Shown here: one piece after another, positions 4,320 to 53,548 of the stretch
Layout of the letters: each line of letters begins with the position of its first letter
Position numbering within the stretch: position 1 is the first letter of the stretch
NCBI GenBank assembly: GCA_009778035.1
Contig: WRKP01000005.1
Span: forward strand, 1 to 64,000
Reading direction: 5' to 3'
DNA: 64,000 bases
DNA from: Planctomycetaceae bacterium
GTDB lineage: Bacteria > Planctomycetota > Planctomycetia > Pirellulales > Thermoguttaceae
Position numbers and translations under genes: made by a program
The notes under the pieces: model-generated
Databases searched by the model: none
Told to the model about the DNA's origin: nothing
What the model saw: only the letters and a program-made list of their open reading frames with translations

Positions 4320-4919
4320 ATGCAACATTCATTTTTCGGCGAGTATAAGCCTTTTGACATTGACAAACGTATCCCCAAGCGCAGGATACTGATTTATCTG
4401 AACGTCTACAATAACCAGTTTGCGCTACAATACTTCAATCGGCTTAAAAAATTTGTACGACAGACTGTCGTTTTGGACATCAAAGATACTCCCCCACATC
4501 CCGATGATGCCATCACTCTGGCTTCAGATTCTCTTGAAACTAACGAATATGATGAATGTTGGGTTGTAGTCGACAGAGAATTATCTTTTAATTTTCAGCA
4601 GGTGCTTGAAAAGAGCAAAGAGGCGAATGTCAATGTTATATATTGCAACCTTTCTTTTGAACTTTGGGTTCTTTTACATTTTAGAAACGTTGATAAAAAT
4701 GAACGATTAGACAGAAACTCGATTTGGCAAGAATTGAAAAGATTGTCAAAATCGGAAAGACATCAAATTTTGGATCACATGTTGGATGAAAACAACATGG
4801 CAGTTGCCATCAAACGAGCCGAACTTCTCTACAGAGAGCAAGGCGGATCCGGCGCATGGAAAAACAATCCTTCGACAAATTTCTTTGAGATAATCGAATC
4901 AATCGTTAACCTGCCCTAA
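4320..4919 (+). CDS. RloB-family protein (AbiLii-like effector)
   Basis: This 199-residue protein has the family hallmark 'NVIYCNLSFELWVLLHF' around residues 105-121 and the acidic 'VVVDRE' strand just before it. RloB proteins are TOPRIM-like partners of AAA ATPases in abortive infection. Oddity: the N-terminal strand that normally carries the acidic 'CEGxxTExxYF' motif reads 'ILIYLNVYNNQFALQYF' here, so the expected catalytic glutamate is missing. The protein may be a diverged or inactive nuclease-like subunit, or may act differently. GGAGG lies at good spacing before the ATG, 9 bases after the ATPase stop. Confidence 0.75.
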   Translation: MQHSFFGEYKPFDIDKRIPKRRILIYLNVYNNQFALQYFNRLKKFVRQTVVLDIKDTPPHPDDAITLASDSLETNEYDECWVVVDRELSFNFQQVLEKSKEANVNVIYCNLSFELWVLLHFRNVDKNERLDRNSIWQELKRLSKSERHQILDHMLDENNMAVAIKRAELLYREQGGSGAWKNNPSTNFFEIIESIVNLP

Positions 4920-5080
4920 TCGACGAATGCCATCGAACAGGCGAAGAAGAGGGGAAACTCCAATGAGACAGTGGGGATTCGACGAAAGATTGGAGGCGAT
5001 TTCTGGCAAATTTGCCCTTTCACATCAACCTGAAATACGATACAATTTCACACGAGTCGTTGAAAACATTGTAAATTGCC

Positions 5081-5335
5081 ATGTCAGTTGTAGATAGTGC
5101 CGATATAGCAGTTTTTGAAGCCATGCAAGCCAATGCAAACGCCCAGATGGGGATTGGGCAGTCACTATCTCAAATGTCGGTTTTCAATGAAGACGTGGAA
5201 CGGCATTCTTCCAGCGTCCCCGAAGAGTCTGATCCGTTTTACAGCGAGAGTAATCTCAATTATCTTCGCCGAGGGCTGACCGCACTCAATAATGGGCAGG
5301 GGATAGAGCGTGGTATGATTGAGGTGCCTGAATAG
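5081..5335 (+). CDS. Orphan RelB/DinJ-like antitoxin, atypical N-terminus
   Basis: The 84-residue product ends in the toxin-binding tail typical of RelB/DinJ/YefM-type antitoxins: 'DPFYSESNLNYLRRGLTAL' followed by 'GQGIERGMIE'. The N-terminal half ('MSVVDSADIAVFEAMQANANAQ') does not look like a ribbon-helix-helix or Phd DNA-binding domain. No RelE/YoeB-like toxin follows: the next gene is on the opposite strand. It may be a remnant, a fusion left by recombination, or an anti-toxin immunity gene. The start is uncertain because no clear ribosome site is visible. The 160 bases before it hold only short frames, such as a 45-codon one from 4963. Confidence 0.5.
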   Translation: MSVVDSADIAVFEAMQANANAQMGIGQSLSQMSVFNEDVERHSSSVPEESDPFYSESNLNYLRRGLTALNNGQGIERGMIEVPE

Positions 5336-5353
5336 CGGTCAGTTTTTTGATAA

Positions 5354-6283
5354 TTATCGCAATGACAAATCAGCAAGTGATTGTAGAGTGTAACGAGGCT
5401 TTCCATTTCCTATCTGCATAGTACAGAGCTCGACAGCAACCAGTTTATCAAGCCATTCTCGATTCAAAACTTCCGGTTCTTCAACAGCAATATCAATTTT
5501 TCCGTGAATAGCGTCTTTTTGCTCGGTTTTTGCGCAATCAGGCAAAAATTCAAACGTACGGCTGATAGGGAAAAAACCTTTAAATTTACCGCATAAGGTC
5601 TCTTTTCCGAAATGAACATTGTTGTCTGCCAAACGTTTTACAGATGTACGAACTTGCTCAAAGTTGTCGTAACGAAAATTTTTGTTGCCGTATGATAAAC
5701 CACACCATGACTCGTTACTTACAAGAACCTCCAGAAACTTATTCAGGAGTTTTATTGCTCTTGGCGGTACGTCGGCTACAATCTCTGTAACCTCATCGTC
5801 GTTGCCCGTTGCCGAGGTGGACAAAAGTGTTTCGATTTTCCTTATCGTATCTTCGGGCGAAGTAGAAGTAAATAGATCAGTCGTCCCCTGTGGCAATTCT
5901 AATTCAAATCCGAAAGAACCGATTGTTGTTCCAATGATGCGAAGTAAATTATTGTCTTTGTCGGGAAGTTTCCCTCGTGATTGTATATCCGTGGTAGTAC
6001 CAACCGCAACCGCGGTGAAAACCTTTGAAAAAGCATCTAACGCCTTTGAACCGAAATCAGCAGAGATGGAATGCGAGCCGACAACAGGTTTGCCCCTGAA
6101 TGTTAAACAAACGGTCGCGGAACGTTCCGGCAACGGCAGCGTTTCCAGTTCTAATTGCGCCTTCGCCAACCGAGCCTCTAAACTCATCCTGTCAATAACA
6201 TCTTCAGGAGGTATTTCTACAAGTAGTCGTTGCAACTCGGTAATTTCGGAAGCGACATAATCGTATTCATTTGTTAAGTTCAT
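5354..6283 (-). CDS. Conserved-looking protein of unknown function, partner of DUF6932-like gene
   Basis: About 309 residues. A helical, Glu-rich N-terminus (residues about 5-50) is probably a coiled coil. It is followed by a globular part with 'LTFRGKPVVGSHSISADFGSKALDAF' and 'IGTTIGSFGFELELP', which reads like a conserved core, though I cannot assign a family. I chose ATG 6283 over GTG 6289: the ATG overlaps the stop of the upstream gene (ATGA) and has AAGGAG at good spacing. The tight coupling to a DUF6932-like nucleotidyltransferase-type gene suggests a two-gene unit, perhaps toxin-antitoxin or defence. No enzyme motif is visible. Confidence 0.7.
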   Translation of the reverse strand: MNLTNEYDYVASEITELQRLLVEIPPEDVIDRMSLEARLAKAQLELETLPLPERSATVCLTFRGKPVVGSHSISADFGSKALDAFSKVFTAVAVGTTTDIQSRGKLPDKDNNLLRIIGTTIGSFGFELELPQGTTDLFTSTSPEDTIRKIETLLSTSATGNDDEVTEIVADVPPRAIKLLNKFLEVLVSNESWCGLSYGNKNFRYDNFEQVRTSVKRLADNNVHFGKETLCGKFKGFFPISRTFEFLPDCAKTEQKDAIHGKIDIAVEEPEVLNREWLDKLVAVELCTMQIGNGKPRYTLQSLADLSLR

Positions 6284-6853
6284 TGACACTTCTCCTTTTT
6301 GGCGATCAATATACTCTTCGCTTTTTTATCATCGGCAGAATCTAGATTTACTTGTAAGAATCCTTTCCACAATCCATTTCGCCGATGCGACCACATACTA
6401 TACCAATAGGTGATCATCGCAATACTACTACTGTTAATGTCTCTCTCTAATTTTTTAAAATAACCATCTACCATGTAGTCTTGCTTCAACCGTTCATTGT
6501 CAAATAACTGCGGTGTTTCTTCAAGTATTGCCTGCTGGCTCCGGCCAGCGGATACCCGCATAAAAGGTAACCACGTCTATGTCGTTTGGATGTCGGCTTT
6601 CCAAATCTTCAATGTTTTCGAGAAAACTGCCGTTTAACCATTGAAATCCGGAAGACAGCCCTGATTTGTGCAATCCTTCGCGAAAGCGAAGGAATCCATC
6701 CAAAATTTCAATTCTCTGTTTTGAGTAGGAAAAATAATCAACAAACTCCGATAGTCCAATGCGATAGGGTGAGCGGTTCAGGCTATTTCCTGCCTCTCCC
6801 ATCGCAATGGGTGGCAAAACTCCGTAAGTATTCCCAGAGTGGGACTGTAGCAA
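6280..6853 (-). pseudogene. DUF6932-like (nucleotidyltransferase-type) gene with a frameshift
   Basis: Two overlapping frames together make one DUF6932-like protein. The first frame (6853-6521) has 'VLPPI', 'LNRSPYR', 'FQWLNGSFLENIE' and 'HPNDIDVVTF', the acidic segment expected of a nucleotidyltransferase-like fold. The second (6561-6280) resumes with 'LFDNERLKQDYMVDGYF', 'YWYSMWSHRRNGLWKGFLQV'. The switch fits one extra T in the TTTT run just after the codons for DVVTF, near 6550. This may be a true frameshift mutation, programmed slippage or a sequencing error. The N-terminal start is uncertain (TTG at 6853 in the track). Its stop overlaps the ATG of the next gene. Confidence 0.65.
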
Positions 6854-9038: not shown

Positions 9039-9749
9039 ATGGCACGGAAGAAAGAAGAAGAACTCCTCGCTCCGCTGTGGATGTGTACCTTCGGGGACCT
9101 TATGTCTCTGCTGTTATGCTTTTTCATCATGCTTTTTGCGATCAGCATTATTTCGGAGCCTCGATTTCAAGCCTTGGTCGATACACTTAGGCAAGATTTT
9201 GAGGGCTATGCCACTCCCTCTAAAGTCCGGCAGCAAAAAGTTCAAGTTACGACGACCGTTTCCGATTCCGCTGCGAGGCGCAGCCGGACGGCTGCCCTGA
9301 CCGGCGGACAACCTACCCCGGCTCCCGAAGGAACGTCCACCGAAGTATTGGCCATCCTGCTCGACGGAACAACGGTGAGAAACGGCTTGATTCGCTTTGA
9401 ACTCGGCGACTACGCGATAACCCCGCAAGCCCGGCGGGAATTAGACGCACTGCTTCCAGTTTTGCAAGGATCGCCCTTTAAGATTTTGGTCAAAGGCTAT
9501 GCCGCTCCGACGGAAATCGAAGGCGATAACAGGTTTCAACGCAGTACGGACCTTGCATTTTTTAGAGCCCTTAGCATCGTGGATTATTTTGCGGAGAAAG
9601 GGTTGATTCGGGACTTTTTTGAGATTTCCGTGGAGCCGGGAGCATCCCCGCGTCGAGCGATTTGGCCGGCGGGGACTCTTCCTGAGCACGCAGACGCGTC
9701 AGCGGAAATTCTGTTGCTCAACCAAACATTGCGTTCGTTGAGGGAATAG
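9039..9749 (+). CDS. MotB/OmpA-like inner-membrane protein
   Basis: I start at MARKKEEE (9039), the usual opening of planctomycete MotB-like proteins, not the ORF-track start at 8973. It has 236 residues. One membrane segment near the N-terminus, 'WMCTFGDLMSLLLCFFIMLFA', keeps the Asp that carries protons in MotB (TFGD). A periplasmic linker is followed by a C-terminal OmpA-like domain ('ILVKGYAAPTEIE...LSIVDYF'), which should bind peptidoglycan. Its partner MotA is not in the window, so a stator role is unproven; it could serve another ion-driven or cell-wall anchoring complex. Confidence 0.8.
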   Translation: MARKKEEELLAPLWMCTFGDLMSLLLCFFIMLFAISIISEPRFQALVDTLRQDFEGYATPSKVRQQKVQVTTTVSDSAARRSRTAALTGGQPTPAPEGTSTEVLAILLDGTTVRNGLIRFELGDYAITPQARRELDALLPVLQGSPFKILVKGYAAPTEIEGDNRFQRSTDLAFFRALSIVDYFAEKGLIRDFFEISVEPGASPRRAIWPAGTLPEHADASAEILLLNQTLRSLRE

Positions 9750-45237: not shown

Positions 45238-48200
45238 TCACCGTCGCGGGCCGCGACGGTCAGAGGCCTCGAAGCCGATGGGGATCACTCCCACCTGCAT
45301 CGGCTCCTCCGGCGGGCCCGACGGCAAATCCAATACCGATATGCTCATCCGCGTTACCCAAGTGTCCGACAAATCCCAAAATTGACCCGGTACACTCGGC
45401 CAATTCAACGTTACCTCCAACGTCCAATCGCCCGGCGATAAATCATCCAACTGAAACAGACCGTGTTCATCCACCACACACGTCACACGGCTGTCCCAAG
45501 CACGCTGCCGCTGACGCTCCCATTCAATCGCGGCATTCATTATCTGAATCCCCTTTTCGTACAAATCCGGGTTCGCCTCCCGAAACGCTTGGCTCTCCGG
45601 CAACGCCTCCCAACGACGAACAACACGCTCCAACTCGTCAGGACTATTCAGCCAACCCGTGTTCATCTCGGGAGCCTTCAGGATATATGCCATCAACGGC
45701 GGAATCATAGGAGTCGGCAACACCATGCGTTCGGGATATGTCAGTTCCGCCTGAACACTGGCAAAACGCCAATCGACTTTCTCCCTGTCTTCTTCCGTTG
45801 GCAAAGCAATCTCTCCCCGCACCGCGTATCCGCCGCCGCCGATCTTCACGCTCAACATCTCGCCCGGCTCGATGTCATACGATTGCATGTGCGAAGAATG
45901 CCAAGAACTATCGTTATTGAGCGCAATGGATTGCCCGACTCGCCCCTTACCCGAAAAAACACGGTCAAACACGAACCGGCCATTTGCATCGCACGGAATT
46001 CGATAAAAATAACTGATAAACGGCCGATCCCAGTTCCGGTCATCTTCAGGATAAAACTGAAGCGACGCCCACGCATCTTTTGCCGGTTCCGTGCCGGTGT
46101 AGATGGTTCCCTCAATGCGTCCCCACGGCGTGAGCGAAATCGGCTCGGTTCGCTGCTCGAATTCGGCCTTGCGAATTGCCGCAAAGCCGCTGTCATGCAG
46201 GAATATCAGTTTATAGTCCTGATTGCCGAGGCTTATTCCGCTTCGGGAAATCGAAAAATTGCCCGTACTGTCCGTACGGAAAGACCGGTTCCTGCTGTTC
46301 TGAGTCAGTCTTGAATTTTCGAGTGAGAATGGCTGGCCCGGCGTTGCGATGCCGATTTCCGTATGCGACGCCGGGTTGCCGTCCGGCTGCAATACCGTAC
46401 CGATCAGATGGGTAGTGAATTGTCCCGTCGCTTTTTTGAGTTTGAATTCGAGCGTCATGTCGCCCGACTTGGCAATCAAATCGGCCGATTGCAACGCTTC
46501 GTATCCGTCGGCCTCAACTTGCAGATGGTAATTGTCGAATTCGCCGAATCGCTGACCAATCATTCGGGTGAAGTTGCCGTCTCTGCCCGACTGCGTGCCA
46601 AATTCGCGGCTCAAACCGCGGCTGCCCTTGAACGTGAACCATTCCGACACGCCAAAATTCGGGATCGGCTCGCCGGTTTCGGCATCGGTTACGATGCCCG
46701 TAATCTCGAACACCGGCTTGAAAACATAAACATTTTCTTCGCCGCCAAACTTCAACGTGGCGTGATCAATTGTGACGTTTTGGACATTGTCGCCTTCAAT
46801 GATGAAGTTAATCCGGCCATCCGGTGCATGTTCCCAAACGAATCGACCATCTTCACCGGTTCTGACGGCTCCATATTCATCCGCATCGACGAAGAGTCGG
46901 TGCGTTCCGATTCCCTGTCCCCACCAATTGTTCCAAAAGCGAGTCGAAATTCGCATTCCTTCGAGCGGATTGCCAGCCGGGTCAACGGTTTTGAAGATTA
47001 ACGTTCGCCCTTTTCGTAAAACGATGTTCAAGGGTTCCATATCGTGCGAGATTTCTTCCAGCCGCACAATATCCGGGGCAAAGTCGCGATGGCATATGCC
47101 GATGTCCACGGTGCGCAGGTCGCCGTTCGGCGAACAATTCTCGAACAAAAATTCGCCGTTTTCGCCGCTTAGGGTCATTGCATGCCTATGGAAGTTCGTG
47201 TCGTCCTGGGCAGCGTTCGTATGGATAATCGCTCCCACGACGGGATTGCCCTGCTCGTCGAGGACTCTTCCTTTGAGCGGCAAGCCGGCGGGGAGTACAA
47301 TCGTTTTCGTAAACCGGCCGTCGGCATCTTTTGCGGCGAAATCCCGGAACGTTTGGCCCTTAGAAATCCGCAATCTGGGAAAGTCAGGATGCGTTATGGT
47401 TATGTCAAAATTTTGGTCGACCTGTTCCGGCGGCAGGACTTGGTAAATCCAAAATCCGTCGGCATCGGTTTTGAACCATTGTGCGTATTCCAAAATAGGC
47501 GGTGCGGGATTATTTTGCCGACCAGCAATACTCACGCCGAACGAAATGGTCGCATCCGCAACCGGATTGCCGGCGGCGTCGATGACGCGTCCGCCGATGG
47601 GGCCGAAAGCCCTATCCGGCATTTTGAACGAAAGCATCGTCGGCAACGGGTCCCTGGAGGTATCCGGCCAACGGAGTTCGTACGGAGCGAAACCGTCGGG
47701 ATAGAGGACGATTTTGAACGACCTTTGCTCGGCAAAATTGGCAATCGGCACGAAGCATTTGCCGTCGATGAGGTCGAAATTTCGGGGCTGGTTGCCTTCC
47801 CAATCGGCGGGACGCGGATTGGGATAGGTGCGGATGTATCCCGTCGTGCAGGGATTGCCGTCCGCATCGGTCAGTTCGACGGAGATTCCAGGCTCCGTGG
47901 CGTTTACGGGCTCTGTAGCGGTTACAGCCTCCGTGGAATCGCCGAAACGCAAGCCGACGCCGAGCAGTGTCAGCACCGCGAGCAACACAAACGGCAATAC
48001 CAGTTTATGCTTGCTCGACTTTCGTACAGGTCTCATTTCGTTAAACAGCATCGTAATTCTCCTTTTGAGTAGGGATTTGCGCCCTGCCATTCCGAGGGCA
48101 CTGTGCGGCTCGGAAGCAGAACGGATTAGAGCAAAATTGAGCAAAATTCGAGCATAATCGCTCGTTTCTCCGCACGCTTCGGCACCGTCATCATCGGCCA

Positions 48201-49140
48201 GGTAATCCTGGTCGGCAAGCAATCGGCTGCGGAGCATCCAATAAAACGGCTGCATCCAAAGCGGATACTGAAATAGCCGAACGACGTTCCAGGTCAATAA
48301 ATCACCGTTTTTCAGGTGCGACCATTCATGGACGAGACAGGCACGCAGTTCTGAAACCGGTGCTGTACAAAGTCTTTCGGGCAGCAACAGTGTTGGCCGA
48401 AGAAAGCCAAACACCATAGGAGCGGCAATTTTGTCGGAAACCCGTAATCGGACGGCACTCCGGGCATGGCCGCTGATATGGCCGCTGACCTGCCGGAACA
48501 TGGCCAAAACGGGCTCGGAAGCGCAGGCCGAGTGTTTGAGCAGGTAGCGGAGTTTGCATCCTGCCGCGAAGTCGCGGAGGAAGAGAACCAGCGGTACAAG
48601 GATGAGTGCATAACATAGCAGGGAGGCAATCGTAATTTCCAAAAAGGGCTGCATCGACTCGGCCTGCGAGACCACAGGGCCGGAATCGGAGTGAGATAAT
48701 AATGAGCCGGGGACGGATCGCGACAATAATGAGCCGGAATCGGAGTGGAGCGCAGTCCCCGGATATTGAACGTGGTCCGAAAACGGCGCCGCAAGCGGCT
48801 CCATCTGCGGCTCTATGTGCTGCATCGCGATCGAATCGCTCGCGGGAGGCTCCATCCGCTGCACTTCGCCGCCCGGCGGTCGGCGATCTTCCGTATGGAA
48901 GCGATCTGCCGTATGGGAATTGGTTTCCATCACGGGCAGGCCGACCATCCATATCGGCCCGATTCCGCAGCCAATGCAAATAGCGGCACCGGCAACGAGG
49001 CCCAATCCGGCTTGCGTGAGGCGGATTCGGTCGATGGGCTGCCGAAAAAATCGGCGGACGACGAGCACCGCCGCCAGCAGGATGAATGCGACTCCTTCAA
49101 AGAGGAGAATGGACATCAGGATTTCGGATGATATGGTCAT
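45238..49140 (-). CDS. BlaR1-like M56 membrane peptidase fused to carboxypeptidase-regulatory-like domains
   Basis: 1300 residues. The N-terminal ~400 residues are the BlaR1/MecR1 chassis: membrane helices near 5-30, 45-70 and 160-185, then a cytosolic M56 zinc peptidase with HEWSH (about 271-275) in 'LVHEWSHLKNGDLL', and a last helix near 380-400. In place of a beta-lactam sensor, about 880 extracytoplasmic residues follow, with several carboxypeptidase-regulatory-like beta-sandwich repeats ('DADGNPCTTGYIRTY', 'DAAGNPVADATISFG', 'DEQGNPVVGAIIHTN', 'DAETGEPIPNFG'). It lies 48 bases after the BlaI gene. By analogy, ligand binding outside triggers cleavage of BlaI. The ligand is unknown. Confidence 0.8.
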   Translation of the reverse strand: MTISSEILMSILLFEGVAFILLAAVLVVRRFFRQPIDRIRLTQAGLGLVAGAAICIGCGIGPIWMVGLPVMETNSHTADRFHTEDRRPPGGEVQRMEPPASDSIAMQHIEPQMEPLAAPFSDHVQYPGTALHSDSGSLLSRSVPGSLLSHSDSGPVVSQAESMQPFLEITIASLLCYALILVPLVLFLRDFAAGCKLRYLLKHSACASEPVLAMFRQVSGHISGHARSAVRLRVSDKIAAPMVFGFLRPTLLLPERLCTAPVSELRACLVHEWSHLKNGDLLTWNVVRLFQYPLWMQPFYWMLRSRLLADQDYLADDDGAEACGETSDYARILLNFALIRSASEPHSALGMAGRKSLLKRRITMLFNEMRPVRKSSKHKLVLPFVLLAVLTLLGVGLRFGDSTEAVTATEPVNATEPGISVELTDADGNPCTTGYIRTYPNPRPADWEGNQPRNFDLIDGKCFVPIANFAEQRSFKIVLYPDGFAPYELRWPDTSRDPLPTMLSFKMPDRAFGPIGGRVIDAAGNPVADATISFGVSIAGRQNNPAPPILEYAQWFKTDADGFWIYQVLPPEQVDQNFDITITHPDFPRLRISKGQTFRDFAAKDADGRFTKTIVLPAGLPLKGRVLDEQGNPVVGAIIHTNAAQDDTNFHRHAMTLSGENGEFLFENCSPNGDLRTVDIGICHRDFAPDIVRLEEISHDMEPLNIVLRKGRTLIFKTVDPAGNPLEGMRISTRFWNNWWGQGIGTHRLFVDADEYGAVRTGEDGRFVWEHAPDGRINFIIEGDNVQNVTIDHATLKFGGEENVYVFKPVFEITGIVTDAETGEPIPNFGVSEWFTFKGSRGLSREFGTQSGRDGNFTRMIGQRFGEFDNYHLQVEADGYEALQSADLIAKSGDMTLEFKLKKATGQFTTHLIGTVLQPDGNPASHTEIGIATPGQPFSLENSRLTQNSRNRSFRTDSTGNFSISRSGISLGNQDYKLIFLHDSGFAAIRKAEFEQRTEPISLTPWGRIEGTIYTGTEPAKDAWASLQFYPEDDRNWDRPFISYFYRIPCDANGRFVFDRVFSGKGRVGQSIALNNDSSWHSSHMQSYDIEPGEMLSVKIGGGGYAVRGEIALPTEEDREKVDWRFASVQAELTYPERMVLPTPMIPPLMAYILKAPEMNTGWLNSPDELERVVRRWEALPESQAFREANPDLYEKGIQIMNAAIEWERQRQRAWDSRVTCVVDEHGLFQLDDLSPGDWTLEVTLNWPSVPGQFWDLSDTWVTRMSISVLDLPSGPPEEPMQVGVIPIGFEASDRRGPRR
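45240..45260. terminator. Perfect 10-base palindrome at convergent gene ends
   Basis: ACCGTCGCGG and CCGCGACGGT (45240-45249, 45251-45260) separated by one base. It starts 15 bases after the obgE stop and overlaps the last codons of the M56 gene. It can form a very stable hairpin; there is no T-run, so intrinsic termination is uncertain. Confidence 0.4.
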
Positions 49141-49188
49141 GGACGTTTGTTGGTGTATTGGCGTGTATCAATCGACAAGGTGCGGTTT

Positions 49189-49575
49189 TTATCCCTTTTG
49201 TTTTTTCACCCGTTCTTTCGCAATCAACTTTTCGATTTCTCGCAGTTCGTCGGCGGAGAGGTTTTCGGCCTGGAGCATAGAGAGCACGAGTCGGTCTACG
49301 GCACCGTCGAAGACTTTGTGCAGGAATCGGGAGCCGGCTTGTTCGATGGTGTAATTCGGCTTGTAATAAAGGGTTCGGTTGACATTTCGGACTTGGAGAA
49401 AGCCTTTTTCGGCCATGATACGGACGAGTGTTTGGATGGTCGTGAGGGCGAATTCGCCGTTGGGGGCCATTATTTGGTGTATTGTGCGGACGGGCGCTTC
49501 GCCGACATTCCAAAAGACTTTAAGGATATCCATTTCTCGTTCGCTGGGAGCGGAGGCCAATTCTTGCCGTGCCAT
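49189..49575 (-). CDS. BlaI/MecI-family repressor, copy 1
   Basis: 128 residues. A winged helix opens with 'LASAPSEREMDILKVFWNVGEAPVRTIHQIM', with 'LTTIQTLVRIMAEKGFLQVRN' as the recognition part. The C-terminal dimer region follows ('LVLSMLQAENLSADELREIEKLIAKE'). BlaI proteins bind a palindrome over their own promoter and are cleaved by the M56 partner. A perfect palindrome is 22 bases upstream of the start. It is the first gene of the operon with the 1300-residue M56 protein. Confidence 0.88.
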   Translation of the reverse strand: MARQELASAPSEREMDILKVFWNVGEAPVRTIHQIMAPNGEFALTTIQTLVRIMAEKGFLQVRNVNRTLYYKPNYTIEQAGSRFLHKVFDGAVDRLVLSMLQAENLSADELREIEKLIAKERVKKQKG

Positions 49576-49596
49576 ATTCTGCGGGGAACATTTAAT

Positions 49597-49618
49597 CTAA
49601 ACTAATAGGTTAGTTTAG
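49597..49618. promoter_or_regulatory. BlaI-type operator CTAAACTAA-TAGG-TTAGTTTAG
   Basis: A perfect palindrome with 9-base arms and a 4-base centre lies directly upstream of BlaI copy 1. It shares ACTA...TAGT half-sites with the operator-like sequence before BlaI copy 2. Confidence 0.7.
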
Positions 49619-49668
49619 CAGGAGGAAAACTTTCCGTCAATGGGGGCATCTGATTGATTTTTTTTAAT

Positions 49669-49715
49669 GGACTTGTTCAGAAATGGTCATTTCGGCGAGG
49701 CCGGAATCCAGCGGA
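49669..49715. repeat. Dispersed palindromic element, partial copy 9
   Basis: GGACTTGTTCAGAAATGGTCATTTCGGCGAGGCCGGAATCCAGCGG: a decayed left half with the TTGTTCGG-type terminus, between the PDZ gene and the BlaI operator. Confidence 0.55.
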
Positions 49716-49743
49716 ACCGGCCGGGTTAATCACCACCGCGACC

Positions 49744-50223
49744 CTATTGTTTGCAGAAAACCTTCAACGGCTTGCTATCCAGCGAAACATCGGCCACATA
49801 TCGTATCCCTGCCCGGATGACTTCCATCATAACGCTCTCCTCCGCTTGCAAAGTCCGCCAGTTTTGGGCAATCCAGTGCATATCGTTGGACGATTCTATG
49901 TGCCGCTGACCAATACCGACAATGGTGTCTCCTGTTGCAATTCCTCTCTTTGCCGCAGGACTGTCTGCCCGCACACACACCACACGCACTCCGCCATATT
50001 CTTGCATCGAAGGGACATAGCGGATGCCGAGAGTTTCCCAAATGATTTCGTCCTGCGAAGCGCCGGCTAAACGAGTTGGTTGCCCCTGGCAAAATGCTGT
50101 GGTAACGCCGACGAGCAATGCGGCCGTCAAGACTGATGCCGTCCAGGCCTGCGAACTCGCGGGCCTCCCGTGCTTACGCAATGGACTTTGGATTTGTTCG
50201 ATGCGTTTTTCGAATCTGCTCAT
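49744..50223 (-). CDS. Membrane-anchored PDZ protein, decapitated BlaR1 paralogue
   Basis: 159 residues from MSRFEKRIEQIQ (50223), with an AAAGGAG site. A membrane helix (about 24-41) is followed by a PDZ domain ('GGVRVVCVRADSPAAKRGIATGDTIVGIGQRHI'). The N-terminal 45 residues match the M56-WD40 protein at the start of its last membrane helix: RIEQIQSPLRKHG, ASSQAWTASV and AFCQGQP are shared, about 35 of 43 residues identical. Even the ribosome-site DNA is conserved. It therefore looks like the sensor end of a BlaR1-like protein that lost its peptidase, or the source of that module. No BlaI is adjacent. Extracytoplasmic sensor or decoy role is inference. Confidence 0.75.
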   Translation of the reverse strand: MSRFEKRIEQIQSPLRKHGRPASSQAWTASVLTAALLVGVTTAFCQGQPTRLAGASQDEIIWETLGIRYVPSMQEYGGVRVVCVRADSPAAKRGIATGDTIVGIGQRHIESSNDMHWIAQNWRTLQAEESVMMEVIRAGIRYVADVSLDSKPLKVFCKQ

Positions 50224-50299
50224 TTCTAGAACTCCTTTTGTGAGAATGGCCAAAGTAGTCGGATTATAGCATATGCCGTGTCCGATTGCCAGTAGATGA

Positions 50300-50716
50300 T
50301 CAGACCGATTCCGCGAATTCACTCAATTTTACAATTTTCGTCTTCTCAAATCGTTGCATCGTGAGCAGGTCAAGGTCGCCGGTAATCAGGTAGTCGGCAT
50401 GACCATCCTTTGCCAAAGCGAGGAGAAAGTTGTCCTTTGGATCTCGGCAAGCATCAACGACGGAGCGGACATCGACAAGTTCGGCACTGCGTTTTAGCAA
50501 TGCAACGAGTCTCGCATAATTTTCTGGGTTGATTTGCCTTGCAAGGTACGGCTTGCGGACGGCATTCGCCAAGTCTTCGAATAATGCTTCGGAAACCAAT
50601 AAACGGTATTTTGAATTGAATACCATTTTGAGGCGAACACGGAACCCCGGCGACAGCATCGAACTGACCCAAGCATTTGTATCAACGACAAGCCGTATTT
50701 TTTTGTTTGTCTGCAT
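50300..50716 (-). CDS. PIN-domain toxin (putative RNase)
   Basis: 138 residues from MQTNKKIRLVVDTNAW (50716), trimmed from the longer track frame. Acidic residues of the PIN active site are visible: 'VVDTNAWVSS', 'SEALFEDLANAV' (Glu), 'DPKDNFLLALAKDGHADYLITGDLDLL' (Asp pairs). It is of the COG1569-type PIN group, a likely RNase toxin. The antitoxin gene overlaps it by 35 bases upstream. The pair sits inside the BlaI/M56 region and interrupts it. Confidence 0.8.
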   Translation of the reverse strand: MQTNKKIRLVVDTNAWVSSMLSPGFRVRLKMVFNSKYRLLVSEALFEDLANAVRKPYLARQINPENYARLVALLKRSAELVDVRSVVDACRDPKDNFLLALAKDGHADYLITGDLDLLTMQRFEKTKIVKLSEFAESV

Positions 50717-50972
50717 AAAGTTCCGCTCGGGCTTCTTTACAAATCGCAACGATTTCTTCCATAGTCGGTTCGTCTTTTTCGGTAAATCCTTGACTTTTGC
50801 GCCATGCATCCATGTCACGTCCGATAAGACTGAACTCATCCAATGCGGAAATCGCTTCTTCATCCACTTCGGGCTCGTCTATTTCGATGAGGTTCTGCGA
50901 CGCAAGATCGACGATCAGGCGTTCCGCCTTGGGATCGACAATCCTGATACTCATTGTTTTTACGACTGTCAT
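50682..50972 (-). CDS. Antitoxin partner of the PIN toxin
   Basis: 96 residues, small and acidic ('IDEPEVDEEAISALDEFSLIGRDMDAW', then 'EEIVAICKEARAELYADKQ'). The 35-base overlap with the PIN toxin, and the size, fit a type II antitoxin. The N-terminus ('MSIRIVDPKAERLIVDLA') resembles the ribbon-type DNA-binding start of such antitoxins. The start may be the internal Met7. Autoregulation would be expected; I did not find a clear palindrome. Confidence 0.7.
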   Translation of the reverse strand: MTVVKTMSIRIVDPKAERLIVDLASQNLIEIDEPEVDEEAISALDEFSLIGRDMDAWRKSQGFTEKDEPTMEEIVAICKEARAELYADKQKNTACR

Positions 50973-51050
50973 AGTACGGCCCTTGTTTCGTTAACGCGTT
51001 CTATTTTCTAACAAATTTTGCAGTTTTACAAGACGGCGACTGGAGCCGCA

Positions 51051-52925
51051 CTACTCCAACGCCCAAATGCGAACGACTCTGTCCTCGCCGCCCGTTACTA
51101 TTTTCCCACCATCCGGTGAAAAAATTGCCGAATGCACATCATCCCTGTGCTCCCGCAATACCAATAACTCCCCTCCCGACTCGGCTTCCCAAATCCGAAC
51201 CGTTCCGTCATCCCCACACGTCACGACAAACCTTCCGTCAGGAGAAAAAGCCGCCGAAGAAACATCATCCCCATGTCCCCGTAATGCTTGCAATTCCCCG
51301 CCGGATTCGGCATCCCAAATCCGAGCCGTATTGTCCTCACTTGCCGTTACGATTCGCCTGCCGTTCGGGGAAAAAACCGCCGATTCGACCGAATCCGTAT
51401 GTCCCCGCAATGTTCGCAATTCCCTGCCCGATTCGGCATCCCAAATCCGAACCGTTCTGTCCGAACTGCTCGAAACAATTCGCCGTCCATCCTGCGAAAA
51501 AGCAACGGAATTGACATCATCCCTGTGTCCCTGCAATGTTTGCAACGCCCTTCCCGATTCGGCATCCCAAATGCGGATGGTGTTGTCCTCGCTGCCCGTT
51601 ACGATTCGCCTGCCGTTCGGAGAAAAAACCGCCGATTCGACCGTATCTCTATGTCCTTGTAGCCGTCGCAATTCTCTGCCGGATTCGGCATCCCAAATCC
51701 GGGCAGTTCTGTCCGAACTGCTTGTTACAATGTGCCTTCCGTCTGGCGAAAAAGCGGCGAAATTGACGTCGTCCGTGTGGCCACTCAATGTTTGCAGTTC
51801 TCTGCCGGATTCGGCGTCCCAAATCCGGGCAGTCCTGTCCGAACTGCTCGTTACAATGCGTCTTCCGTCCGGCGAAAAAGCAACGGAACTGACATCGTTT
51901 GTATGGCCTCGGATTTCCAAAATGGAACGAGCAGCGGTGATCGTTCCGGCTGGCAATCGGCTATCACCGTCGTTGCCGCCTGAAATTCGGCTTTGCGGCT
52001 GTCCCTGACAAAACGCCAGGGTAATACTGACGAGCAGGGCGGTCGAAAAGACCGATGCCGTCCAGGCCTGCGAACTCGCGTGACTCCCGTGCTTACGCAA
52101 CGGGCTCTGTATTTGTTCAATACGTCTCATAATTTTCTCCTTTCGTGAAAATGGTTGAAGGATAGGAAGTAAACGTTCTCCGGCAACGAGCCGAAGAAGT
52201 GTATCGGTATATTGTTCCGGCGGAATGTTCCCCTGTGCAAGCACGACATAATCGCAGGCCTCATCGGCAGCAAAATCGCATTGCCAAAGCACGAACCAGT
52301 ACAAAGGATGCCAAAACAGTAAGGCTCCGCATAGCCGCGTGAACAGAGCGGTCAAGTGATCCCGACGGATGATGTGCGATAATTCGTGCAGAAACACGGC
52401 ATCGCGTTCGGTATTGTCGAGTTTTTCCGCCAGCGATTCGGGCAGCAACACCGCCGGATGGAGCCCCCAGCACCAGACCGTCGGGCTTTTGACGCTCGGC
52501 GATGTGAACAAAATCGGCAGCGATACATTGCGGAGCATCTTGGAATGACGCAAAAGCGCATCCTGCAGTTCTCTGTCGGGATAGGGGGTTGCGTGGAACA
52601 TCAATTTTCGTGAATGGGCAATGCCGTAGAGCAGGATGGCGAGGAAAAAGAGCATTCCTGCAAGGCAAAATATGCCGAGCGTGTGGAGATTGATCCATTG
52701 CGGAATGACGGAGATTTGCAGCATTCCATTTCCGGTAGCGAAGACGAGCGTGGAAAGCAGGGGTGTGAGTATCGCGGCAAAAATCCCTGTGGCGTAGAGC
52801 CAATGGGCTTTCCAGGGTGCGTATCGGTAGCGTTTTCCGAGCACCCACGCGGCAGCCAGCCAAAACGTGGACTGCCAAAGGGCGAAAAGCACGAAAGTAC
52901 CGAGAAGGGGGATTGTGGTTGTCAT
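51051..52925 (-). CDS. BlaR1-like M56 peptidase fused to a seven-bladed WD40 propeller
   Basis: 624 residues. The N-terminal ~320 residues form the BlaR1 chassis: membrane helices near 5-30, 40-60 and 85-105, a peptidase motif HELSH (about 178-182) in 'FLHELSHIIRRDH', then a last helix ('WTASVFSTALLVSITLAF'). From about 337 to 624, seven consecutive WD40 repeats close a full propeller, each 'GH.D.V.SA.FSP.GR.IVT.S.D.T.RIWDAESG'. Topology puts the propeller outside the cytoplasm, where a penicillin-binding sensor would sit. The start overlaps the BlaI copy 2 stop (ATGA). The repeats are also near-identical at the DNA level, which suggests recent copying. Confidence 0.85.
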   Translation of the reverse strand: MTTTIPLLGTFVLFALWQSTFWLAAAWVLGKRYRYAPWKAHWLYATGIFAAILTPLLSTLVFATGNGMLQISVIPQWINLHTLGIFCLAGMLFFLAILLYGIAHSRKLMFHATPYPDRELQDALLRHSKMLRNVSLPILFTSPSVKSPTVWCWGLHPAVLLPESLAEKLDNTERDAVFLHELSHIIRRDHLTALFTRLCGALLFWHPLYWFVLWQCDFAADEACDYVVLAQGNIPPEQYTDTLLRLVAGERLLPILQPFSRKEKIMRRIEQIQSPLRKHGSHASSQAWTASVFSTALLVSITLAFCQGQPQSRISGGNDGDSRLPAGTITAARSILEIRGHTNDVSSVAFSPDGRRIVTSSSDRTARIWDAESGRELQTLSGHTDDVNFAAFSPDGRHIVTSSSDRTARIWDAESGRELRRLQGHRDTVESAVFSPNGRRIVTGSEDNTIRIWDAESGRALQTLQGHRDDVNSVAFSQDGRRIVSSSSDRTVRIWDAESGRELRTLRGHTDSVESAVFSPNGRRIVTASEDNTARIWDAESGGELQALRGHGDDVSSAAFSPDGRFVVTCGDDGTVRIWEAESGGELLVLREHRDDVHSAIFSPDGGKIVTGGEDRVVRIWALE

Positions 52926-53332
52926 AGGTTCTGTGAACGTTCTTTTTTTTCGGCAATCATTTTTCGTATCTCTGCCAATTCATCCTCGTTGAGGCCGGTA
53001 TCATCGACGAAATGCTGGAACAGGAGCGTTTTGCTTCCGCCGAGGAAGGTGTCGGCAAATTTCCGCAGGGCGTCGCCGATGGCACCGCTTCGGCTACGCG
53101 TCGCTTTGTACAGGTACGTTCGGCAATTATCCGGGGCGGGCTCGTGGGTGAGCCAGCCGGTTTTTTCGAGTTTTTGCATCGTAGCGAGTACGGTCGTGTA
53201 GGCCAGCGGCGTATCGGTATTGGCATTGAGTTCGGCAAGGACATCGTGAACGGTGGCTCCGTTGCGTTGCCAAACGATTTCCAGCACACGGCGTTGTTGT
53301 CCGCCGAGGGCGTTGAGTTCGTGTGCGTTCAT
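52922..53332 (-). CDS. BlaI/MecI-family repressor, copy 2
   Basis: 136 residues. The winged helix has 'LGGQQRRVLEIVWQRNGATVHDVLAEL' and 'LAYTTVLATMQKLEKTGWLTHE', the classic BlaI pattern. The C-terminal 'LFQHFVDDTGLNEDELAEIRKMIAEKK' is the dimer and cleavage region. It overlaps the M56-WD40 gene by 4 bases, a stronger coupling than in copy 1. A partial palindrome lies about 40 bases upstream. Confidence 0.9.
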   Translation of the reverse strand: MNAHELNALGGQQRRVLEIVWQRNGATVHDVLAELNANTDTPLAYTTVLATMQKLEKTGWLTHEPAPDNCRTYLYKATRSRSGAIGDALRKFADTFLGGSKTLLFQHFVDDTGLNEDELAEIRKMIAEKKERSQNL

Positions 53333-53370
53333 GTTTTGTTAAAAACTGCGGCGAGCAGTACGTCTTATAA

Positions 53371-53394
53371 TAATACTACATCCGATAGTAATTA
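53371..53394. promoter_or_regulatory. Operator-like sequence TAATACTA-N7-TAGTAATTA
   Basis: An imperfect palindrome with ACTA/TAGT half-sites, upstream of BlaI copy 2 and overlapping AT-rich -10-like sequence. BlaI-type operators commonly have this half-site form. Confidence 0.55.
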
Positions 53395-53429
53395 CAAGGG
53401 GGGACAGCCTCTTGGGCGTTTTAGGAGAA

Positions 53430-53548
53430 AAAAGCCGTCATTCCGGCAATGCCTACCTCTGGGCAATGCTACCTCTGGATTCCGGCTTGCGCCGGAATGA
53501 CGGTTTTTTGTCCAGAGTAATTTGAAGAGCAATTTGAAATACGCTCTA
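53430..53548. repeat. Dispersed palindromic element, copy 10
   Basis: Left: AAAAAAGCCGTCATTCCGGC; right: CTTGCGCCGGAATGACGGTTTTTTGTCCAGAGTAATTTGAAGAGCAATTTGAAATACGCTCTA. The right terminus gives the TAG stop of pilT. A short CTACCTCTGG duplication lies in the centre. Confidence 0.75.

Follow-up and report, generated by a model that had tools for sequence, protein, structure and literature searches.

Genes of the locus

The window analyzed here comprises the initial 64 kb of contig C5 in a planctomycete MAG that is ~75% complete, with an assembly of 2.46 Mb. The original prediction had placed two BlaI-M56 operons, and a gene keeping the last membrane helix plus a PDZ domain, at positions 45238 to 53332; Pfam matches above the cut-off were obtained for all of them. 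All of the genes described for this region lie on the minus strand. The first operon consists of the gene for BlaI_A (52922–53332), a winged-helix repressor of 136 aa that was aligned with MecI and 2g9w, and the gene for the 624-aa M56-WD40 receptor (51051–52925); the two genes overlap by 4 nt. The second operon contains the genes for BlaI_B (128 aa; 49189–49575) and for the M56-CPR receptor (1300 aa; 45238–49140). Between the operons lies the orphan PDZ gene (49744–50223; 159 aa; PDZ_2, 38.4 bits), which has no M56 domain and was recognized also by its similarity to the TM4 region of M56-WD40. Its most likely start is the ATG at 50223 and not the listed GTG, and its upstream block (50078–50289) comprises a promoter (TGcTATAAT), a Shine-Dalgarno sequence, the start codon, and the TM4 block.

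A possible toxin-antitoxin pair (50300–50972) sits between the M56-WD40 and orphan PDZ genes. It is composed of a PIN-domain toxin-like gene (TIGR00305; 50300–50710), whose start is uncertain (the listed ORF runs from 50863 to 50300), and an overlapping 96-aa ORF (50682–50972) without a family match, which its position suggests as a possible antitoxin. The only matches to defence-system profiles in the window were a WD40-type one, which was spurious, and a weak one to PIN.

Profile searches of the contigs of the assembly found three Peptidase_M56 genes and three Penicillinase_R genes. The third pair forms a BlaI/M56-CPR operon on contig C2, and its ectodomain is long and CPR-like. Among named genomes, close relatives of the M56-WD40 protein family were found in two Planctomycetaceae MAGs only: Lab288P3bin146 (WRCR01000073.1, the same gene as in our genome G009) and Ct408_bin98 (JAIRTV010000416.1, our G013). 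The bin names suggest a termite-gut origin for both. A search of a viral collection for close relatives gave none. Every ORF of the window is open from end to end; a MAG of this completeness may contain assembly errors, and some genes may start at other, internal codons.

BlaI repressors and their predicted operators

The repressors matched the Penicillinase_R profile with 72.7 bits for BlaI_B and 79.7 bits for BlaI_A (Pfam cut-off 22.6), and the MecI matches of the two had E values of 3e-9 and 2.5e-4. Staphylococcus aureus BlaI is cut at N101-F102, and the Phe after the scissile bond is near-invariant (PMC9834060). In the alignment with MecI, BlaI_A has His-Phe at the Asn-Phe position, so that this Phe is kept, and BlaI_B has Ser-Met. 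The Met of BlaI_B, with the Phe kept in BlaI_A alone, may count against the explanation that we favor below.

A dyad, predicted from sequence to be an operator, lies across the promoter-like site of each of the three BlaI genes in the assembly, as expected of the BlaI/MecI repressor family. Before BlaI_A the dyad is TACTA-N7-TAGTA (TACTATCGGATGTAGTA, 53374–53390) and spans the spacer and −10 of a promoter-like site at 53370–53397 (minus strand); before BlaI_B it is TAAACTA-N6-TAGTTTA (TAAACTAACCTATTAGTTTA) and covers the −10 and the sequence after it in a site at 49612–49640 (minus strand). The third BlaI gene, on C2, has two tandem TTACGA-N6-TAGTAA operators. The A-type dyad recurs before the orthologous BlaI genes of G009 and G013. 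Operators of the kind ACTA-N6/7-TAGT had been predicted with the suggestion of a genome scan, and dyads of this kind were found at the operons' own promoters, but elsewhere the scan gave exact copies only in coding genes. The exact TACTA-N7-TAGTA sequence is unique in the 2.46-Mb assembly. The B core, ACTA-N6-TAGT, occurs at two places, the second inside an aminotransferase gene on C8, and the TTACGA-N6-TAGTAA form has one further copy, inside the isoleucyl-tRNA synthetase gene on C4. Sites with one mismatch did not exceed the expected frequency and were mostly inside ORFs. Other candidate BlaI targets were rejected, because every exact operator match outside the BlaI promoters was within a coding gene. 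Because no second non-coding exact match was found, in a search that used a strict consensus on an assembly with a quarter of the genome missing, each BlaI-M56 operon may control only itself. The orphan genes have no such dyads; they have an extended −10 promoter instead.

Two further features of the sequence were observed. A hairpin (ATTCCGGC...GCCGGAAT, then GACGG) is similar at window positions 53420–53500, upstream of BlaI_A, and at ~9320–9380 of region L037, upstream of the third BlaI; it is probably a dispersed repeat or a terminator. Sequences containing TAG/CTA are strongly under-represented in this genome, in which the pattern ACTANNNNNNTAGT had 2 sites per strand vs 64 for the reversed control pattern.

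Architecture of the M56 proteins

Two window proteins matched the Peptidase_M56 profile, with 79.7 and 79.3 bits (Pfam cut-off 31). M56-WD40 has hydrophobic segments at residues 11–29, 45–63, 85–103, and 288–306, giving a layout of TM1 to TM3, a zincin domain (H180ELSH and D221EACD225), TM4 (288–306), AFC|Q at 304–307, and a propeller at 332–623. In M56-CPR, TM1 and TM2 are followed by an outer loop of ~90 aa, TM3, a zincin domain with HEWSH and QDYLAD, and TM4 (379–397). After TM4 come CarboxypepD_reg-type β-sandwich (immunoglobulin-like) repeats, which scored 96 bits with three stretches passing the Pfam cut-off individually and correspond to the carboxypeptidase-regulatory repeats that had been predicted. 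Neither window M56 protein had a Pfam match to a penicillin-binding (transpeptidase-like) domain, in line with the original prediction, in which none was visible. With the NCBIfam model blaR1_generic the scores were 57–71 bits vs a cut-off of 400, and the M56 part alone was matched.

The propeller of M56-WD40 was predicted to have seven blades and to be complete. Pfam matched seven WD40 repeats (295 bits), and the AlphaFold2 model of residues 332–623 has 28 strands in seven blades of four, each of ~42 aa, mostly with pLDDT 87–97; together they form a complete and properly closed ring. Among solved structures, seven-bladed WD40 propellers (7big and 5yzv) come closest. Pairs of blades are up to 81% identical in amino acids and 83% in DNA, a sign of recent amplification like that described for prokaryotic WD40 proteins (PMC5587647). 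A donor for the propeller was sought within the genome; the best WD40 relative, on C20, was only 45% identical, and thus no recent donor was seen.

The membrane half of M56-WD40 was modeled with low confidence because only three sequences were available. Positive charge is located in the stretch that separates TM1 from TM2, behind TM3, and ahead of TM4. By the positive-inside rule, this distribution predicts that both termini are outside and that the zincin faces inward, which is the arrangement of the BlaR1 structure (PMC9834060). A profile of eight M56 cores matched the BlaR1 cryo-EM chains 8exs/8exp with E = 2e-18 to 4e-18. An extracytoplasmic position of the outer modules would follow from the charge rule and this homology together, and the propeller is predicted to lie outside and not in the cytosol. 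This N-out/C-out topology, with the BlaR1 core match at E = 2e-18, agrees with the predicted arrangement of one M56 chassis next to BlaI on which extracytoplasmic modules have been swapped. The modules may also be sensors of ligands, as was proposed.

The residues named for BlaR1 are D210, E242, D246, and Y261, of which E242 is the zinc-ligand Glu of ExxxD (PMC9834060). M56-WD40 has H180 and H184 in HExxH and counterparts in D189 (D210), D225 (D246), and Y239 (Y261). Beyond HExxH these three counterparts are kept, and a loss of zinc ligands does not refute the predicted arrangement, although the third ligand is Asp and not Glu: both window proteins have Asp at the E242 position (as D221 in M56-WD40 and within QDYLAD in M56-CPR). 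It is also Asp in HEW-type relatives, including the closest relatives of M56-CPR; the genome's third M56 protein has Glu. Asp is able to serve as a zinc ligand, so that the substitution neither proves nor refutes activity. Asp in place of the third zinc-ligand Glu may count against our preferred explanation.

A signal-peptidase-like site behind TM4

BlaR1 of S. aureus is cut by signal peptidase SpsB at G331|Q332, immediately after its last helix (PMC9834060). TM4 ends in AFC|Q in all eight proteins of the family (four in the window genome and four in sister genomes), and AFCQ fits the A-x-C|Q form of a putative type I site. For 65 planctomycete M56 proteins, sites at the outer TM4 end were scored with a home-made measure. 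The mean best score was 6.6 vs 5.9 ± 0.14 for shuffled segments (0 of 1000 shuffles reached the observed mean), and strict sites numbered 34 vs 25.4 ± 3.2. For the outer end of TM2, observed and shuffled scores were equal.

The outer module may be the product of the operon instead of its sensor: the operon would control only itself and, when derepressed, would yield more of the module, signal peptidase would free the periplasmic domain behind TM4, the free propeller, PDZ, or CPR domain would work in the periplasm, and the orphans would be unregulated products of the same kind. This is what the SPase-like site found family-wide at the place where BlaR1 is cut (PMC9834060) might lead one to expect, and it fits with the failure to find a further exact operator outside coding sequence for any of the three BlaI repressors, with orphan genes that have their own promoter and the same module type, and with modules that are binding scaffolds (WD40, PDZ, HEAT, and TPR). 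However, shedding of BlaR1 is thought to serve turnover and not output (PMC9834060), Ala-rich sequence often contains AxA-like motifs (shuffling predicts 25 of 65), and the operators were sought by strict consensus in an incomplete genome. We consider this reading unlikely. If it were true, a domain swap would change an inducible periplasmic protein, and the orphans would be an unregulated export cassette.

Planctomycete M56 genes outside the window

To place the locus among its relatives, M56 frames were scanned in 60 fetched regions; these were drawn from the best matches to the window M56 core, and the sample is therefore biased. An earlier search of 392 genomes with a 290-aa query (M56 plus one blade) was uninformative, as WD40 candidates displaced those with M56. 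A BlaI frame was directly upstream in 61 of 71 sampled M56 frames; the other 10 were at contig ends (five) or were further genes in M56 arrays (five). CarboxypepD_reg was the commonest ectodomain, found by Pfam in 18 of 67 C-terminal regions, and WD40 was found in two (L141 and L161), so that both kinds of fusion named in the original prediction were recovered. Single regions matched PDZ, EF-hand, TPR, polysaccharide-export, and other domains, and transpeptidase was absent from the families listed for the 67 regions. In L148 (G096, contig C35) four consecutive M56 genes occupy 17 kb with two BlaI genes, possibly a tandem amplification of receptors.

This survey indicates that M56 plus BlaI is probably a general receptor platform of Planctomycetota, with an outer half that is exchanged. 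The modular family that had been predicted is thus real but not peculiar to this locus, as the frequency of upstream BlaI and the prevalence of CarboxypepD_reg make clear; it is a phylum-wide habit.

Module exchange at TM4 and orphan module genes

M56-WD40 and the orthologous M56 protein of G009 share 68% identity over 314 residues, as far as the end of TM4; past that point they have no similarity. Where the window protein has its WD40 propeller, the G009 ectodomain has PDZ, repeated, and HEAT-like modules. A homolog of the G009 ectodomain (68% identity over 323 aa) is encoded in the window genome by an M56-less gene on C10 (L045, 4883–6007, minus strand). This C10 orphan begins with a TM4 block of 48 residues, in which it is 79% identical to the orphan PDZ protein. 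The C10 orphan also contains a repeat unit, GPxGDF...RTERLTxEMF, that belongs to no Pfam family.

The orphan PDZ protein consists of a cytosolic tail (RIEQIQSPLRKHG), TM4, AFC|Q, and the PDZ domain. Its N-terminal block resembles the TM4 region of M56-WD40 (81% in DNA over 129 nt; 74% in amino acids), and the orphan PDZ and C10 genes share 205 nt, from promoter to TM4 end, that are 92% identical. A third M56-less relative, on C2, retains a shorter similarity, giving at least three such genes in this genome. No M56 footprints were found upstream of the PDZ and C10 orphans. In G014, an orphan whose TM4 block is 74% identical to the G013 M56 protein has 33 aa of M56 in frame ahead of that block, and it is therefore a receptor gene without its 5′ part. 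The view of the window's third gene as a truncated relative stood in that it has only the last helix and PDZ; it is not merely a truncated neighbor but one among several "decapitated" module genes, as its M56-less relatives and the shared 205-nt block demonstrate. In G009, the M56 receptor gene (L046, 738–4664) is followed by one for a further exported protein (4784–6781) that shares the first ectodomain stretch of the receptor (52% over 92 aa), which also points to exchange.

MAG contigs can be chimeric, and blocks of 129–205 nt are repeated in this assembly, so a mis-joining of unrelated genes at the TM4 block was considered. Identity of 81% is too low for short-read mis-joining of the PDZ/M56-WD40 pair, although the PDZ/C10 pair, at 92%, is less safe. 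Three other assemblies (G009, G013, and G014) have this joint too, in different fusions, and the M56-WD40 frame, its operator, and its stop/start overlap with BlaI_A are intact. An assembly artefact is thus very improbable.

The WD40 fusion and the orphans could also be transient, functionless products of recombination at the same short repeated TM4 sequence. Within the genus, only 3 of 21 genomes have the M56 family of BlaI_A, the orphan TM4 blocks resemble recent copies (92% DNA identity), and the G014 orphan is clearly a 5′-deleted gene. Against such functionless shuffling, which we regard as very unlikely, the window ORFs are fully open, the propeller ring is complete and closes properly, and the zincin motif, operator, and BlaI are conserved across species at 44–68% protein identity.

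These comparisons place the joint at which evolution swaps parts behind the last membrane helix. Most simply, TM4 and its basic tail would act as an export signal for whatever comes after them, and modules could then be joined to the M56 chassis or cut from it at this position.

Discussion

The best explanation, to which we assign a probability of about 0.72, is that these are self-regulated BlaI-M56 receptor operons whose modules are exchanged after TM4. BlaI would bind the dyad overlapping its own promoter. The M56 protein would have four membrane helices, a zincin facing the cytosol, and a C-terminal module outside the inner membrane. By analogy with BlaR1, an outside signal felt by the module would activate the zincin across the membrane, and the activated zincin would cut BlaI and derepress the operon. 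The receptor would evolve by exchange of everything after TM4 at a conserved joint composed of the basic cytosolic tail, TM4, and AFC|Q. This joint might serve by itself as a signal peptide or an anchor, and a gene that loses its M56 half would therefore still encode a module that can be exported, as in the case of the orphan PDZ gene.

BlaR1 is known as an antibiotic-resistance switch. Like BlaR1/BlaI and MecR1/MecI of Staphylococcus and Bacillus (PMC9834060), the window operons have a BlaI-type repressor gene adjoining that of a four-helix M56 zincin, a predicted operator over their own promoter, and a C-terminal module that is predicted to be on the outer side; as in BlaR1, a Gln follows a site behind the last helix, here a putative one, of the signal-peptidase type. 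Unlike those systems, in which the sensor is a penicillin-binding domain, they have WD40 or CarboxypepD_reg ectodomains, Asp for the third zinc-ligand Glu of BlaR1, and orphan ectodomain genes, and no second target operator was found.

The chassis and gene order are those of other planctomycete BlaI-M56 operons (61 of 71, with CarboxypepD_reg in 18 of 67), whereas the HEAT/PDZ/WD40 exchange and the orphans sharing TM4 were seen in this genus only. The M56-WD40 proteins of L141 and L161 have degenerate propellers, in contrast to the near-identical blades of the window propeller. Planctomycete WD40 ectodomains have been described on Ser/Thr kinases and ECF sigma factors (PMC8567305, PMC5587647); these also place a propeller with highly repetitive blades on a signalling enzyme or regulator in the same phylum, but the chassis here is a membrane zincin with a BlaI repressor, and neither paper mentions M56. 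A literature search of incomplete coverage gave no description of M56-WD40 receptors or of orphans with TM4 only. The BlaR1-type chassis, the CarboxypepD_reg ectodomains, and planctomycete WD40 signalling fusions are already known or visible in databases. What is new is the G009 M56 protein with PDZ and HEAT modules where this genome has WD40, and the homolog of its module encoded without M56 on C10.

The genomes have caught this exchange in progress: a module that is joined to M56 in one species stands free in another. These genes provide a natural series in which the passage of a signal across the membrane by BlaR1-type proteins could be tested, and the same series could be used to test whether shedding by signal peptidase is a conserved part of the mechanism or a staphylococcal detail.
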